64,000 nt of DNA from Candidatus Gastranaerophilales bacterium (GTDB lineage Bacteria > Cyanobacteriota > Vampirovibrionia > Gastranaerophilales > Gastranaerophilaceae), in contig CALUSL010000002.1 of the NCBI GenBank assembly GCA_944323425.1, forward strand, positions 1 through 64,000, read 5' to 3'. Shown here in pieces: positions 1 through 5,277 of this stretch (the stretch's first letter is position 1; each line of letters begins with the position of its first letter). The position numbers and the translations under genes were made by a program. The notes beneath the pieces are model-generated. The model was not told where the DNA came from and ran no database searches. It worked only from the letters and a program-made list of their open reading frames with translations.

Positions 1-167
1 AAGCTGAGGTTTTTAAATTAAAATCCATTTCGGCACCATCAATTGAACTTTGACAGCATTATTTGCCGATGTGGCGACTAACCGAAGCGAAAGCTGAGGT
101 TTTTAAATTAAAATCCATTTCGGCACCATCAATTGAACTTTGACAGCATTATTTGCCGATGTGGCGA
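1..167 (+). repeat. 90-bp-period tandem repeat containing the tRNA-Leu(CAG) 5' end
   Basis: Bases 1-77 are repeated exactly at 91-167, joined by a 13-base linker (78-90). Each copy ends with the first 13 bases of the downstream tRNA-Leu (GCCGATGTGGCGA). The first copy therefore carries a truncated tRNA start at 65-77, and only the second continues into the intact gene. The left copy begins at the window edge, so further copies may lie upstream. This is read directly from the sequence; origin by slippage, recombination or assembly error cannot be told apart here. Confidence 0.9.
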
Positions 168-235
168 AATGGTAGACGCACACGCTTCAGGTGCGTGCGA
201 GGAAACTCATGGGGGTTCGAGTCCCTTCATCGGCA
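155..235 (+). tRNA. tRNA-Leu (anticodon CAG)
   Basis: The acceptor stem pairs GCCGATG (155-161) with CATCGGC (228-234), followed by discriminator A at 235. The anticodon stem CACGC/GCGTG encloses loop TTCAGGT with anticodon CAG at 188-190, which decodes CUG. A long variable arm, as expected for class II tRNA-Leu, precedes the T arm GGGGGTTCGAGTCCC-type segment. No CCA is encoded, so CCA must be added by nucleotidyltransferase. The gene sits at the end of the second 90-bp repeat copy, and the first 13 bases of the tRNA are part of that repeat. Confidence 0.95.
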
Positions 236-252
236 ATTTTAAAAGAATATTT

Positions 253-282
253 TTGCAAAAATTATGTTTATGGTAATATATT
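253..282 (+). promoter_or_regulatory. candidate promoter for the tRNA-Leu(GAG) transcript
   Basis: TTGCAA (253-258) is followed after 18 bases by TATATT (277-282). It lies just before the first of two 88-bp repeat units. A transcript from here would run through both truncated tRNA units before reaching the intact tRNA-Leu(GAG). No equally clear promoter lies between the last unit and the tRNA. This is inference from box similarity only. Confidence 0.35.
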
Positions 283-287
283 TTTTG

Positions 288-463
288 TTGAAAATTGAAT
301 AATGATGTCGACGTGGCACTCTGCCGAGAAAAACGATTGAGTATCGTTTTTCGAGAGGGGAGGTATACGCGACAGTTGAAAATTAAATATTGATGTCGAC
401 GTGGCACTCTGCCGAGAAAAACGATTGAGTATCGTTTTTCGAGAGGGGAGGTATACGCGACAG
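288..463 (+). repeat. two 88-bp tandem units with truncated tRNA-Leu 5' ends and a hairpin insert
   Basis: Units at 288-375 and 376-463 differ by two bases in their first 19 and are otherwise identical. A third, incomplete leader (464-482) abuts the intact tRNA-Leu(GAG). Each unit has a 19-base leader, then GTCGACGTGGC (the first 11 tRNA bases), a 44-base insert, GGTATACGCG (which matches the tRNA D-arm region) and ACAG. The insert contains a perfect 10-bp stem, GAAAAACGAT pairing with ATCGTTTTTC around loop TGAGT. No T-run follows the stem, so it does not look like a terminator. In effect each unit is a tRNA 5' quarter with six bases replaced by a 44-base stem-loop. Confidence 0.9.
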
Positions 464-482
464 TTGAAAATTAAATATTGAT

Positions 483-564
483 GTCGACGTGGCGGAATCG
501 GTATACGCGCACGTTTGAGGGGCGTGTGGGGAAACCCGTGCGGGTTCAAGTCCCGCCGTCGACA
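483..564 (+). tRNA. tRNA-Leu (anticodon GAG)
   Basis: The acceptor stem pairs GTCGACG (483-489) with CGTCGAC (557-563), followed by discriminator A at 564. The anticodon stem CACGT/GCGTG carries loop TTGAGGG with anticodon GAG at 517-519, decoding CUC and CUU. A long variable arm and the T-loop GGTTCAAGTCC are present, and no CCA is encoded. Two truncated copies of its 5' part precede it and two copies of its 3' end (758-773 and 908-925) follow it. A strong terminator begins two bases after the gene. Confidence 0.95.
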
Positions 565-565
565 A

Positions 566-601
566 TTAAAAAGAGGATAACAATTGTTATCCTCTTTTTA
601 A
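566..601 (+). terminator. rho-independent terminator of tRNA-Leu(GAG)
   Basis: A perfect 16-bp inverted repeat around an AATT centre reads TTAAAAAGAGGATAAC on the left arm and GTTATCCTCTTTTTAA on the right. The right arm ends in a T-run. It starts two bases after the tRNA discriminator base, so it most likely ends the tRNA transcript. Confidence 0.8.
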
Positions 602-757
602 TATGCTCAAGTGGTGAGGGCTTTAATCCGTATATCGCGGTTTCAAGCGGATTTGCGGACGGACGACACGAAGTTAGTCCGGATAGCGAGGAAATTGAGC
701 GAAGTTGAACCGCAGGTTCAAAAGCGAAACTTTCCGAGCGTGGAGCAAATCCAAGAC

Positions 758-773
758 AGTCCCGCCGTCGACA
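758..773 (+). repeat. direct repeat of the tRNA-Leu(GAG) 3' end (copy 1)
   Basis: The 16 bases AGTCCCGCCGTCGACA match the last 16 bases of tRNA-Leu(GAG) exactly (549-564). A terminator-like stem follows at 782-805, as a terminator also follows the intact tRNA. A repeated tRNA 3' end is the usual mark left by site-specific integration of mobile elements. No integrase gene is present in the window, so the att-site reading is inference. Confidence 0.85.
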
Positions 774-781
774 CCATATAT

Positions 782-805
782 AAGACTCAGTAAGGAGTCT
801 TTTTT
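782..805 (+). terminator. terminator-like hairpin after tRNA 3' fragment
   Basis: AAGACTC (782-788) pairs with GAGTCTT (795-801) around a six-base loop, and T-rich sequence follows to 805. It comes nine bases after the first tRNA 3' fragment. Confidence 0.6.
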
Positions 806-907
806 AATGCGGACTTTTCACCCGAATTGTTTCTGTCGAAACAATCGCGGGTTTACCCTCACGAGCATCCTGCACTGTACGGCTCATTCTTCGCCTACAT
901 TGCAAGA

Positions 908-925
908 CAAGTCCCGCCGTCGACA
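908..925 (+). repeat. direct repeat of the tRNA-Leu(GAG) 3' end (copy 2)
   Basis: The 18 bases CAAGTCCCGCCGTCGACA match 547-564 of the intact tRNA exactly. Together with copy 1 this gives three in-line tRNA ends spaced by roughly 210 and 150 bases. The segments between them have no integrase or other gene. Confidence 0.85.
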
Positions 926-933
926 TTTTATTT

Positions 934-953
934 GTTGGGCAAGACCAACCTAC
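934..953 (+). repeat. REP-like palindrome, left copy
   Basis: GTTGGG and CCAAC form a small stem, followed by CTAC. An inverted relative occurs at 2346-2366 on the other side of the 1138-2241 gene. The two share the outer words GTTGGG and CCAACCTAC. Short dispersed palindromes of this kind are common in cyanobacterial-type genomes; assignment to that class is inference. Confidence 0.5.
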
Positions 954-1137
954 AACTTATAATACATCATTTGGGAAGTGTAATAAATAATATATTCCAC
1001 CTGTAATGCCTCAGCTATTACAAATGGATGATATACTGTAGGTGTTGTCTATTATCTTCAAAATTTGGATACCATGCCAGTAAATAACCCCTCTTGAAAC
1101 ATGTGCTAGCGGGATTAGGTTAAACCTTTTCAAAGGT

Positions 1138-2241
1138 TTAACAACACAAACCAGCACCATACTCACGTAATCTTGCTTTTTGAGCTTTCTGGTAGAATTT
1201 ATATTGTTCTTTAGCAAAATTCACAAGTTCTTCAGCTTCTTTTCTGTCAATTTTTAAATCTGTAATTTCATTAGTTCTGTAATTGAAGTTAAATAATGGA
1301 ACTTCTCCATTTATTACGGTTCCAGATTTAAAGTCGTAATTTAATTTTTTGTACTTACCGTACTTGCCAGATAAGTCAATTATCTTTCTAGATTGCCCAG
1401 AATTATTAAATTGATATATATTATCTACTACAAAGCTATTATTATTTTGCGAACCTCTATATTGCCAACTAATATTGCAGTTTCCTTGAGGGAGTGTAGC
1501 ACCGCCGTGAGAAAAAGCATCAGTTGGAATCTCTACTCCATTTATTTTTGTTGGATAACCTATACCACCTTCTGCAGGTAAAACTATAGTTGGCTTATGA
1601 AAATATCCAGAGATATTCTTTTGTTTGTCAATAAACCTTCCATCTATACTCACGAGACCACTTGGTTTATCAATTATAGTAAGATGTTTAGAATTTTCTA
1701 TATTTAAGTTACCTGCTTCATCGATAAATTTCTTTAAAGTGGTAGTATTATTATTTATAACTTGTTCTAATCCCAATTCATCAGAATATTTGTATGTTTT
1801 TTCAAAAATGTTTTCTGAACCTTTAGTTTTAGTTGATTTCTGTAATACTCCGTCTAAGTATTCCATAACAACTTTAGAGCCGTCTTTGCTTTCACTAACA
1901 ATTTTACCAGTATAATTTGTTCCGTCAGCCATTACTGCTTTACCTTTTACAAATTTATTGCCAGCTTCTTTAAAGGCACTTACAGCCAATTCTTTAATCT
2001 CTTGCACAGGATTATTAGTAGTAACTGGTGGAGTTGTCTTAGGTTTAACTTTTCCTCTGGTTGCTACATATATACCATAAGAAGCTAATGCAACTAAACC
2101 TGTTCCTATAGCAACTTTAGCTCCAGTAGAAAGACCTTTGTTTTCTTTAGTAGTTGGATTAATTGGATTAGTATTACTACTTCTAAATTGAGGAGTAGCT
2201 ATTGGCATATTAAACTTTTGAGAAATACTTAAATCAGACAT
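1138..2241 (-). CDS. hypothetical membrane-anchored protein (367 aa)
   Basis: I do not recognise this as a named family. A polar N-terminus of about 38 residues contains the short motif TPQFRSS, which resembles the Phe-basic N-terminal motif of other unknown proteins in this window. One membrane segment spans about residues 41-60, followed by a Pro/Thr-rich linker. The rest is a beta-rich soluble region in which phrases such as DGTNYTGKIV and MEYLDGVLQKSTK recall MORN-like or toxin-repeat strands. The protein ends in GLCC. ATG is at 2241; no convincing Shine-Dalgarno lies before it, although TTGTAA-18-TATTAT on the minus strand near 2335-2306 could be a promoter. The gene stands alone between two related inverted palindromes. 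Confidence 0.7.
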   Translation of the reverse strand: MSDLSISQKFNMPIATPQFRSSNTNPINPTTKENKGLSTGAKVAIGTGLVALASYGIYVATRGKVKPKTTPPVTTNNPVQEIKELAVSAFKEAGNKFVKGKAVMADGTNYTGKIVSESKDGSKVVMEYLDGVLQKSTKTKGSENIFEKTYKYSDELGLEQVINNNTTTLKKFIDEAGNLNIENSKHLTIIDKPSGLVSIDGRFIDKQKNISGYFHKPTIVLPAEGGIGYPTKINGVEIPTDAFSHGGATLPQGNCNISWQYRGSQNNNSFVVDNIYQFNNSGQSRKIIDLSGKYGKYKKLNYDFKSGTVINGEVPLFNFNYRTNEITDLKIDRKEAEELVNFAKEQYKFYQKAQKARLREYGAGLCC

Positions 2242-2345
2242 ATTTACACACTAATTTTGTAACCTATATATATTAAACATTAACAATACTAATATTTGCT
2301 AAAATAATAATAAATATAAATAAAATGTTACAAATTATTTAGTAA

Positions 2346-2366
2346 GTAGGTTGGCTGCAACCCAAC
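2346..2366 (-). repeat. REP-like palindrome, right copy (inverted)
   Basis: GTAGGTTGG (2346-2354) and CCCAAC (2361-2366) flank a small loop. Read on the minus strand it matches the left copy at 934-953 in the words GTTGGG and CCAACCTAC. The pair encloses about 1.4 kb holding only the 1138-2241 gene. Confidence 0.5.
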
Positions 2367-2370
2367 GAAT

Positions 2371-2535
2371 TTAAATAATTTCTAATCCTAATACAATTCT
2401 CATATTATAATATTCCTGCATAGATTGTTTCATTATTAGGACCACCTTATGATAAATATTGAATTTACTGCCCAATTCTGATACAATTTTCTTGTCAAAG
2501 GGTTCTAAAGTCGTGAGCTTAACGACACCATAAAA
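2371..2535 (-). pseudogene. C-terminal remnant of an unrecognised coding sequence
   Basis: On the minus strand a stop-free frame of about 55 codons runs from the terminator at 2532-2559 down to TAA at 2371-2373. Its composition is protein-like, including KLTTLEPFDKKIVSEL and MKQSMQEYYNMRIVLGLEII. No start codon with a ribosome binding site precedes most of it, and its upstream end coincides with a terminator palindrome. It therefore looks like a truncated gene end rather than a functional gene. I do not recognise the family. An internal ATG could give a peptide of about 20 residues. Confidence 0.3.
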
Positions 2536-2559
2536 AAGCGGCATTAATGCCGCTTTTTT
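2532..2559. terminator. bidirectional terminator palindrome
   Basis: A perfect 28-base palindrome has arms AAAAAAGCGGCATT and AATGCCGCTTTTTT, giving T-runs in both directions. On the minus strand it would end transcription of the acetyltransferase gene that stops at 2608. The remainder of 2242-2607 holds the right palindrome and the remnant frame and nothing else I can identify. Confidence 0.8.
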
Positions 2560-2607
2560 AATTGTAAATGCAGAAACACGAATTTTTTATATAGAAACAC
2601 CTGCTAT

Positions 2608-3129
2608 TTATTCAAAAAATTCTGGCGGATATTCAACTATTGCATTAAGCATTGTTGATTTGCCCTGAAGATTTAAAGCCATAAAAAATTCTGATGGCAC
2701 ATCAAAAGGACATTGTATTCCAAATTTTATAGCTGGAATATAGCCAAAACGTGGATAATAAGACGTATGCCCAAGAAGAATTGAGTATTCATAACCAATA
2801 TTTTTCGCGATTCGGTGTCCTTCTTTAATAAGCGTTTTTCCAATACCACGACGCTGAAAATCTGTTAGTACAGTTAATGGTGCAAGAGCTAGCTGAGTAG
2901 TATTCCCGACTTTGACTTCAGTAAAGAGTACATGCCCTATTATTTTTTTATTGTACTCAGCAACAAGCGAAAGTTCAGGAATAAAACTTTCACTTTTTCG
3001 TAATCTTTCAACCAGATAATGCTCATTCCCGTCGCTGTGTTCTGCATTTTTAAAAGTATTTTTTATTAATTCAAAAACTTGTATATAATCAAGTTTTGTT
3101 TCTTGGCGTATTATTATATTCTCTATCAT
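2608..3129 (-). CDS. GNAT-family N-acetyltransferase (YhbS-like)
   Basis: This 173-residue protein has the GNAT fold. Its acetyl-CoA pyrophosphate loop reads QRRGIGK at about residues 93-99. The preceding strand, ELSLVAEYNKKIIGHVLF, is typical of motif D, and LGHTSYYPRFGY near residue 130 is typical of the YhbS (COG3153) group. The substrate cannot be told from sequence; relatives include putative small-molecule and protein acetyltransferases. It starts at ATG 3129 and is followed by the terminator palindrome at 2532-2559. It is not in an obvious operon. Confidence 0.85.
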   Translation of the reverse strand: MIENIIIRQETKLDYIQVFELIKNTFKNAEHSDGNEHYLVERLRKSESFIPELSLVAEYNKKIIGHVLFTEVKVGNTTQLALAPLTVLTDFQRRGIGKTLIKEGHRIAKNIGYEYSILLGHTSYYPRFGYIPAIKFGIQCPFDVPSEFFMALNLQGKSTMLNAIVEYPPEFFE

Positions 3130-3338
3130 AAATTTATTCCTTAATAAAATATTACTATTATATTATTTCAAAGATACATTATATCCGAAATTCCAGTATT
3201 CAATACTCAATTAAGAAACATATTTTCAAAGCTCAAAGTAATTTATACTAATTTCTTTGTAACTTTTTTTATAAAAAAGGCAATTATTAAGCACAAAAAT
3301 ACTTTAATAACATGTGAAGTAATAGTGTGAGAAATTTT

Positions 3339-3779
3339 ATGCAACCTATCTATCCTAATTGTTTTGATTTATTGACAACGCATGGTGTAATACATAATGA
3401 CCTTGTCGGATATATAACGGGGACACCGTCAGCGTATTTACAAAATTATGTAGCCCAAAGAGGAGGCATCCCTCAATCGTATGCACATACACAAACTATG
3501 CAGCAACCAAATGTTCAAATTCAGCAGCAGCCCGCAGCAGATGAATATAAAAATAAAAAACCAGAGAACAATATAGAAAATGCTGAAGCACCATCATTGC
3601 ATTCTCACAATCCCCATAGAAATAATATAGGAAAGAGTATAGCAATGAGTCTGATTCTTTCTCTTGGTGCTTCATTATTACTTGCCAAGGGAATAAGAAT
3701 GGTCAGAGGAACAACTGTTCCGCCGGCGCCCGCAGGAAGCCCGTGGTATCAAAAATTTCTAAATCTTTTTAAAGCTTAG
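3339..3779 (+). CDS. hypothetical protein with one C-terminal membrane segment
   Basis: I do not recognise this protein of about 146 residues. The N-terminus is polar and followed by a Gln/Pro/Asn-rich low-complexity stretch (about 50-100). One membrane helix spans about residues 102-122, and a short Pro-rich tail ends in KFLNLFKA. I start it at ATG 3339; an in-frame GTG at 3327 would add four residues, and neither has a strong ribosome binding site. The last 11 bases overlap, tail to tail, the end of the malic enzyme gene on the other strand. It could be a tail-anchored inner-membrane protein, but no function can be assigned. Confidence 0.6.
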   Translation: MQPIYPNCFDLLTTHGVIHNDLVGYITGTPSAYLQNYVAQRGGIPQSYAHTQTMQQPNVQIQQQPAADEYKNKKPENNIENAEAPSLHSHNPHRNNIGKSIAMSLILSLGASLLLAKGIRMVRGTTVPPAPAGSPWYQKFLNLFKA

Positions 3780-5277
3780 AAGACATAACCTCTGTGATTT
3801 TTTGAACAACCCTTGTATCAAGCGGCTCCGGAAGAATTTTTTCCCGGGATAACTCGTCTTTGCTTACAATCGACGCAAGCGCGATTGCGCAATTGAGTTT
3901 TATTTCATCAGTAATTTTATGGATATTGCCTTCTATTGCACCTTTAAAAACACCGGGAAATGCCAGAGAATTGTTAATCTGGTTAGGAAAATCACTGCGT
4001 CCGGTGCCAATAACATAAGCACCCGCCTTTTTTGCGTCATCCGGCATTATTTCCGGAACCGGATTTGCAAGTGCAAAGATAATAGATTTTTTATTCATTG
4101 TTTTAACCATATCAGGAGTAAGAAGATTTCCCTTTGATAGCCCTATAAATATATCCGCACCTTTTATTTCTTCAGCCAGTGAGCCTTTTTCCTGGTTCGG
4201 ATTTGTACTTAAAGCAAGATTTTCCAGATTTTCATTATTTTTAGGTCTGCCTTTATAAATACTGCCTTTGCTGTCCAGAACAATAAGATTTTTTGCTCCT
4301 GCAAAAATTAATAATCTGGCAACAGCACTTCCTGCCGCTCCGGCACCATTTACGATAATTTTCACATCAGAAAGCTCTTTGTCTACCAGAGTCAATGCAT
4401 TTAAAATTGCAGCCAGCACAATTATTGCCGTACCATGCTGGTCATCATGAAATACCGGTATTTTTAGCGTATCTATTAACGTATTTTCTATTTCAAAACA
4501 TGCCGGTGCTGCAATATCCTCAAGATGTATCCCGGAAAACGATTCTTCCAGAAGTTGAACGATTTTTATTAATTCTTTAGGATTTTGTGTTTTTATGCAT
4601 AACGGCATTGAGCTCACCCCGGCAAGTGCCGCATACAAAGCGGATTTTCCTTCCATTACAGGTATCGCCGCATCAGCACCGATATTTCCAAACCCGAGAA
4701 CTGCTGTTCCATCAGAAACAATAGCAACCATTTTTGTGCATTTTTGTTCGCTTAATTCTGTCTCTATAACCCCTCCGGCAAGTTCATGGAGCTGCAATGA
4801 TTTTTCTGAGACATTGCCTTTAAGCTGGTTGGGATTAAACATAAAGACATTTCTTGAAATTGCGCCGAAAAAGTCTTTTATATCCGGCACTGTTCCTTTT
4901 AGTACAGGTATATCAACATCAAATTCGATTTCTTTAACATAGTCTGAAATAAGACTCAAATCTATTCCGCAAAAATTAGGCTCAATATTGTCGACTACAA
5001 ATTTCAAATCTTCAGGCGTAGTTTGTTTTATACATAAAGGATATGCATCTATTAATAGTGAACTTTTCAAAAAAATTGCACGTTTTAAAGATTGTTCATA
5101 ATCAAAGGACAAAACAGCCACAGAATCGATTTTATTCGTATATATTTTTTCTGCTTCAATATTTTCACTTATTTTAAGACAGGAGGAACCTACTCCCGGA
5201 GTATAAACGAGGGAAAGAATTTCCTTGTCCTTAATTTCTATTTTCGGAACTACTTTAATTCCCTGCATATATGCCAT
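3769..5277 (-). CDS. malic enzyme (oxaloacetate/malate decarboxylating, NAD(P)-dependent)
   Basis: Malic enzyme converts malate to pyruvate and CO2 with reduction of NAD(P). Recognisable parts are YTPGV (about 25-29), VAIVSDGTAVLGFGNIG (184-200), VMEGKSALY with the catalytic Lys, FHDDQHGTA (277-284) and the nucleotide-binding loop GAGAAG (311-316). The layout is odd. YTPGV normally stands shortly before the SDGTAVLG strand. Here about 150 residues intervene, and part of them (about 53-112) resembles a degenerate second copy of the following segment: VAVLS/VAIVS, PLCIKQTTPEDL/PLCIKTQNPKEL, GIDLSLI/GIHLEDI. At 502 residues it is longer than most bacterial single-domain malic enzymes. Its ATG overlaps the plsY stop codon by one base (TAATG), implying coupled translation. 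Confidence 0.88.
   Translation of the reverse strand: MAYMQGIKVVPKIEIKDKEILSLVYTPGVGSSCLKISENIEAEKIYTNKIDSVAVLSFDYEQSLKRAIFLKSSLLIDAYPLCIKQTTPEDLKFVVDNIEPNFCGIDLSLISDYVKEIEFDVDIPVLKGTVPDIKDFFGAISRNVFMFNPNQLKGNVSEKSLQLHELAGGVIETELSEQKCTKMVAIVSDGTAVLGFGNIGADAAIPVMEGKSALYAALAGVSSMPLCIKTQNPKELIKIVQLLEESFSGIHLEDIAAPACFEIENTLIDTLKIPVFHDDQHGTAIIVLAAILNALTLVDKELSDVKIIVNGAGAAGSAVARLLIFAGAKNLIVLDSKGSIYKGRPKNNENLENLALSTNPNQEKGSLAEEIKGADIFIGLSKGNLLTPDMVKTMNKKSIIFALANPVPEIMPDDAKKAGAYVIGTGRSDFPNQINNSLAFPGVFKGAIEGNIHKITDEIKLNCAIALASIVSKDELSREKILPEPLDTRVVQKITEVMSSKL

Follow-up and report, generated by a model that had tools for sequence, protein, structure and literature searches.

Why should truncated copies of a tRNA gene, each interrupted by the same hairpin, stand in tandem in front of the intact gene? 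This question is raised by the tRNA-Leu(GAG) locus of a Candidatus Gastranaerophilales bacterium, in the first 64,000 nucleotides of contig CALUSL010000002.1 (GCA_944323425.1), a stretch that we call the window. Its relevant features are listed below, where H denotes a 41-nt hairpin element, T1 a copy of the first 11 bases of the tRNA and T2' a copy of its bases 18-27.

1-167, + strand: tRNA-Leu(CAG) 5'-end unit, truncated and lacking H (77-nt repeat at a spacing of 90)
154-236, + strand: intact tRNA-Leu(CAG) (ARAGORN)
253-282, + strand: promoter-like site for the tRNA-Leu(GAG) transcript (TTGCAA-18-TATATT, 9/12)
287-306, + strand: leader copy 1, GTTGAAAATTGAATAATGAT (direct repeat)
307-317, + strand: T1 copy 1, first 11 bases of tRNA-Leu(GAG) (identity to the tRNA 5' end)
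318-358, + strand: H copy 1, 41 nt (covariance model, 71 bits, E 3.2e-15)
362-371, + strand: T2' copy 1, GGTATACGCG, tRNA bases 18-27 (sequence, fold)
375-394, + strand: leader copy 2 (direct repeat)
395-405, + strand: T1 copy 2 (sequence, direct repeat)
406-446, + strand: H copy 2 (covariance model, 71 bits, E 3.2e-15)
450-459, + strand: T2' copy 2 (sequence)
463-482, + strand: native leader of the intact tRNA-Leu(GAG) (third copy of the leader repeat)
482-565, + strand: intact tRNA-Leu(GAG) (ARAGORN; Rfam tRNA, 52.6 bits)
565-602, + strand: perfect 19-bp inverted repeat 3' of tRNA-Leu(GAG), probable terminator
758-773, + strand: truncated 3'-end copy of tRNA-Leu(GAG) (direct repeat)
908-925, + strand: second truncated 3'-end copy of tRNA-Leu(GAG) (direct repeat)

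As the initial annotation had described, truncated tRNA sequence, a 44-base stem-loop and further tRNA bases follow one another twice at 287-462, in two 88-bp units (287-374 and 375-462) that lie 5' of the intact gene. Each unit consists of a 20-nt leader, GTCGACGTGGC (tRNA bases 1-11), the 44-nt insert, GGTATACGCG and ACA, the insert being H followed by GGA. The units are 98% identical, and their two differences both fall within the leader, so that they are indeed identical outside it. The promoter-like site is weak, its score being at about shuffle level, and its position before the first unit fits. As RNA, the 68-nt unit body folds at -30.7 kcal/mol (z -5.8), with 0 of 200 shuffles as low; as single-stranded DNA it folds at -15.0, far better than shuffles, and the 3' side of the first T2' is predicted to pair with T1. 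In window positions 1-5000, the Rfam 15 search matched only the two tRNAs above the gathering score. A TTGAAAATTnAATA-like motif stands directly 5' of many tRNA genes (window 287-306; leaders in L004-L032), and we take it to resemble the boxA antitermination motif.

When the region was searched against relatives, the insert alone matched at many places. The matches share ACTCTGCCGA, a stem with the loop TTRAGTA, and GAGAGG; the recurrence of this hairpin of 41 nt throughout the family shows that the insert is more than a chance sequence. H is a repeat restricted to Gastranaerophilales, an order of gut bacteria. The covariance model found it in 135 of the 146 genomes of the window's family, representing 38 of 41 genera, with up to 50 matches per genome and a range from 2 to 42 within the genus g7 alone. 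Sampling the phylum, we found matches in 123 of 292 genomes, 122 of them in the window's family and one elsewhere in the order, in a different family; the sampled Cyanobacteriota outside Gastranaerophilales had no match. Most pattern-match records that give an order read Candidatus Gastranaerophilales, and the locus of one match labelled Heliobacteriaceae coincides with a genome of the window's family. No exact match to the H pattern was found in IMG/VR, and a viral origin was dropped on that account.

The edges of the element are sharp. We profiled 212 distinct copies, using seeds taken solely from the loop and inner stem: the information exceeds 1 bit inside the 41-nt core and stays below 0.45 bit outside; the loci were gathered by H searches, and the conservation within the core is therefore partly selected, whereas the outward drop is not. 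H is also extragenic, with 11 of 162 copies in open reading frames against an ORF coverage of 73%. Its inner stem is 98.7% paired and has 23 double-change cells versus 6.2 in shuffles, and the G-U test for RNA-level selection gave 7 GT versus 2 AC cells among 54 distinct 41-mers. The GCCGA/GA internal loop may resemble an RNA kink-turn. Some copies of H are interrupted by nested hairpin insertions of ~135-150 nt (L017, 1276-1456; L004, L005 and L006).

H is very often associated with the ends of tRNA genes. We examined 257 distinct copies and found a tRNA gene no more than 400 nt away from 153 of these, with 112 of them upstream in the sense orientation, 33 downstream in antisense and 8 downstream in sense; none of the 153 is upstream in antisense. 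Where H is linked to a tRNA, the adjoining DNA is in most cases that tRNA's own end, copied in truncated form, and H most often starts ~11 nt inside the copy; typically, the truncated end with H is followed by a repeat of the leader or terminator and then by the intact gene. Such units form 43 distinct arrays of 2-5 units each, with periods mostly of 78-141 bp. In the Leu arrays, T1 is mostly identical at 11 of 11 positions to the adjoining tRNA although these tRNAs vary between genomes, which points to a recent origin or to homogenisation of the copies. The units also differ among relatives: three of these (L009, L012 and L014) have an empty Leu(GAG) site, with the gene and no unit, and the congeners G001-G003 have a single unit at this gene, the H of which is split by ~135-150 nt. 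For one H copy of G160, for which a clean empty site was sought, only the left-hand gene aligned in congeners.

The duplication of tRNA ends is a broader phenomenon, of which H is the most widespread passenger. We counted copies of the terminal 12 nt of each tRNA (at most 1 mismatch, within 700 bp) and found that such copies accompany 18 of the 40 tRNA genes of the window's genome, flanking the 5' end in 13 cases and the 3' end in 8, while mid-tRNA and reversed-sequence controls gave 0 of 40. The corresponding figures are 1 of 29 tRNA genes in a closed cyanobacterial genome belonging to a different class and 2 of 31 sampled tRNA genes in G097, a member of the window's family with few H; these counts indicate that the extent of the duplication varies within the family. 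H lies near 7 tRNA genes of the window's genome, and most end copies carry other hairpins, some of which have the same tip on another foot (AGGGACCC...GATTGAGTATC...GGGT at Thr, AAGGACTCCG...GATTAAGTATC...GGAGG at Pro). Since end copies are common without H, the duplication and the insertion of H may be separate processes or a single one.

The element is found in other settings as well. It occurs within antisense remnants of 5S rRNA, identified by eye as CCGTGTTCGGGATG-H-GGGGTG, and in an intergenic compound repeat with many copies in G160; it also caps GTCATNCTGAG...GAAGNATC repeats, of which G313 has 275 copies. In GTCATCCTGAGCC-GNA-GGCGAAGGATC repeats, H takes the place of the GNA loop. These non-tRNA repeats usually end in a GNA loop, a GNNA loop or a small hairpin, and H stands in for CC-GNA-GG. 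Loops of the GNA and GNNA types (e.g. GCGAAGC) are unusually stable in DNA, which suggests that single-stranded DNA would be the relevant form. The tips of the GTCATNCTGAG-tip-GAAGNATC repeats, which number from 62 to 275 copies per genome (G313, G127, G165 and G060), are interchangeable: GNA/GNNA loops, GGCTTTAGCC and H. The initial annotation had proposed a tRNA-derived repeat family or a scar of element activity. A repeat family and element activity are both supported, as H is spread through the order and often seated in truncated tRNA ends; derivation from a tRNA did not survive, for H itself contains no tRNA sequence and is found, besides, within remnants of 5S rRNA and hairpin repeats of unrelated kinds.

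The Leu units have a further conserved property. Thirteen of them, drawn from several genera, adopt as their fold a three-way junction whose outer stem, GTGRC/GYCAC, is formed by T1 and an inverted partner, T1', and whose other arms are the H arm and a second hairpin, h2, almost free in sequence yet always paired. Of the cells in this structure, 99.6% are paired, 8 pairs are changed on both sides, and 0 of 500 shuffles reached as high a covariation score; most of the 13 units were chosen by a pattern requiring the outer-stem partner, so that the independent test covers the other two arms only. In the window's own unit, GGTATACGCGAC is predicted to act as the outer-stem partner. Considering all contexts, complementarity between T1 and T1' is modest, with a score of at least 8 in 14% of cases versus 2.5% of mismatched flanks, and flank complementarity exceeds that of mismatched flanks with p ~1e-6. 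Such strong structural conservation could reflect a function.

Four other explanations have to be weighed against the reading of H as a mobile hairpin. That the units are an assembly artefact might be suspected because the assembly is a draft of 47 contigs and the window's contig starts within a similar array, that of the truncated 5' ends of tRNA-Leu(CAG), in which window positions 1-77 are repeated at 91-167. A stretch of 77 bp is common to the start of the contig (C2) and the end of contig C13, from which we conclude that the two contigs probably lie next to each other and that the array extends further than shown; as the contig begins inside an array, local copy numbers are uncertain. The refutation by artefact that the initial annotation had envisaged does not apply to the phenomenon: the 43 distinct arrays are nearly all in other assemblies, some of them inside contigs of hundreds of kb. 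The two leaders of the window differ at two positions, and in congeners, too, a unit stands at this tRNA. An artefact is thus extremely unlikely as regards the phenomenon, the exact number of units in the window's genome being uncertain. The units might instead be a putative functional RNA, a pre-tRNA leader serving processing (as an RNase P site or decoy), antitermination or tRNA dosage. Their position between the promoter-like site and the tRNA, the conserved T1-H-h2-T1' junction with its compensatory changes and the way T1 tracks the local tRNA all speak for this. Nevertheless, the 33 antisense copies of H in 3'-end units weaken the decoy proposed earlier, H occurs in non-tRNA intergenic repeats, units are absent from 22 of the 40 tRNA genes of the window's genome and from 29 of the 31 sampled in G097, some relatives have empty Leu(GAG) sites, and positions 1-5000 match no Rfam family except tRNA. 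We regard such a role as unlikely.

Truncated tRNA ends are classic traces of integrated elements, which leave tRNA gene fragments (PMC9897764), and the units resemble these in adjoining the intact tRNA. Copies at both ends of tRNAs and Y1 transposase genes beside H units at three loci also speak for such an origin. However, as remnants of integrase attachment sites the units are quite improbable. They are short (periods mostly 78-141 bp), contain no genes and do not bound cargo with an integrase, the depth of the hairpin is nearly constant, occurrence at both ends also sets them apart from the known fragments, the 5' end has most copies, the window's units have ordinary gene neighbours (GNAT, malic enzyme, PlsY and Der), and H has neither a recurrent neighbouring gene nor a match in IMG/VR. 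It is very doubtful, too, that H serves a RAYT (REP-associated tyrosine transposase) as its REP and is moved by it in trans. H is a short imperfect palindrome, extragenic and in high copy; RAYT-like Y1 transposases (PF01797) occur in 50 of the 146 family genomes, the median H count is 10 in Y1-positive versus 5 in Y1-negative genomes (p = 2.7e-4, kinship ignored), and three Y1 genes lie within 300 bp of H units. Against this, neither a GTAG nor a CGTC tag is present on H, the inspected Y1 genes are accompanied by their own GTAG-type palindromes, and no Y1 match was found in the window's genome or in the H-rich G127, G160, G124 and G023. These palindromes and the patchy presence of Y1 led us to set aside H as the REP of local RAYTs. 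We also observed that RAYT-like Y1 genes of ~180 aa have GTAG-type palindromes nearby in L258, L267, L268, L276 and L277, and that for most of these genes a second, matching palindrome lies within the gene or past its far end. We likewise rejected a partner gene next to H: clustering the ORFs within 700 nt revealed no recurrent gene, and the clusters comprised translated repeats and apparently syntenic genes, nothing else.

Compared with known systems, H is of a known kind as a dispersed, REP-like palindrome, but neither the tag nor the transposase by which the named REP classes are recognised was found for it. Like GTAG-tagged REPs and REPINs, imperfect palindromes of 20-40 or more nt that are extragenic, in high copy and thought likely to move as single-stranded hairpins, H is a short, extragenic, multicopy imperfect palindrome; unlike them, it has no invariant GTAG, its edges being ACTCTGCCGA and GAGAGG, no dedicated flanked RAYT was found, and it prefers duplicated tRNA ends and nests in other hairpins. 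CGTC-tagged REPs and Rickettsia palindromic elements are likewise dispersed palindromes with no known dedicated transposase (PMC3733652), but H has no CGTC tag at its edge and is tied to tRNA ends and hairpin loops. The mobile repetitive or double hairpin elements of mitochondria in Allomyces and sponges have conserved stems, as H does, and the basis of their mobility is unknown (PMC2800124); H differs in being bacterial, in the conservation of its loop and edges and in its seat in tandem tRNA-end duplications. That seat appears to be new: the open-access literature, which excludes most subscription papers, yielded no description of the H repeat or of hairpin-bearing tRNA-end arrays. A second dispersed hairpin repeat, GGATTTGCGGACGG...GCAAATCC, at ~646-771 of the window, bears a 3'-end copy of tRNA-Leu(GAG), and similar sequence is present many times in congeners.

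On balance, we lean towards the reading that H is a mobile hairpin of a REP-like, non-autonomous type, nesting in DNA hairpins and persisting at tRNA genes only if the end is duplicated. Its mobility would proceed by targeting single-stranded hairpins, although no transposition has been observed: H would enter near the loop of a DNA hairpin, taking the place of the apical loop in dispersed palindromic repeats. The end of a tRNA gene is hairpin-forming too, and entry into a sole copy would destroy an essential gene, which would explain why H is seen at tRNAs only where the end and its flank (the leader on the 5' side, the terminator on the 3' side) are tandemly duplicated. The outer copy would carry H and the inner one would stay an intact tRNA, and recombination between direct repeats would then expand, contract and homogenise the arrays. 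This order of events is the one we propose, and H and its units would have no cellular role. It is doubtful that a system inserts a hairpin ~11 nt inside tRNA or 5S ends, or DNA hairpins generally, and rebuilds the end simultaneously; if true, this would be a self-repairing insertion that spares its target gene, without a known enzyme class.

Nearly half of the tRNA genes in the window's genome are accompanied by copies of their ends in truncated form, and some of these copies contain a hairpin found order-wide. The arrays are a warning that tRNA loci break assemblies in these MAGs, and they provide a defined family of natural tRNA-end mimics for tests of RNase P and RNA processing. They bear on how very short, gene-less repeats spread, and on whether single-strand folding makes tRNA genes attract such repeats.
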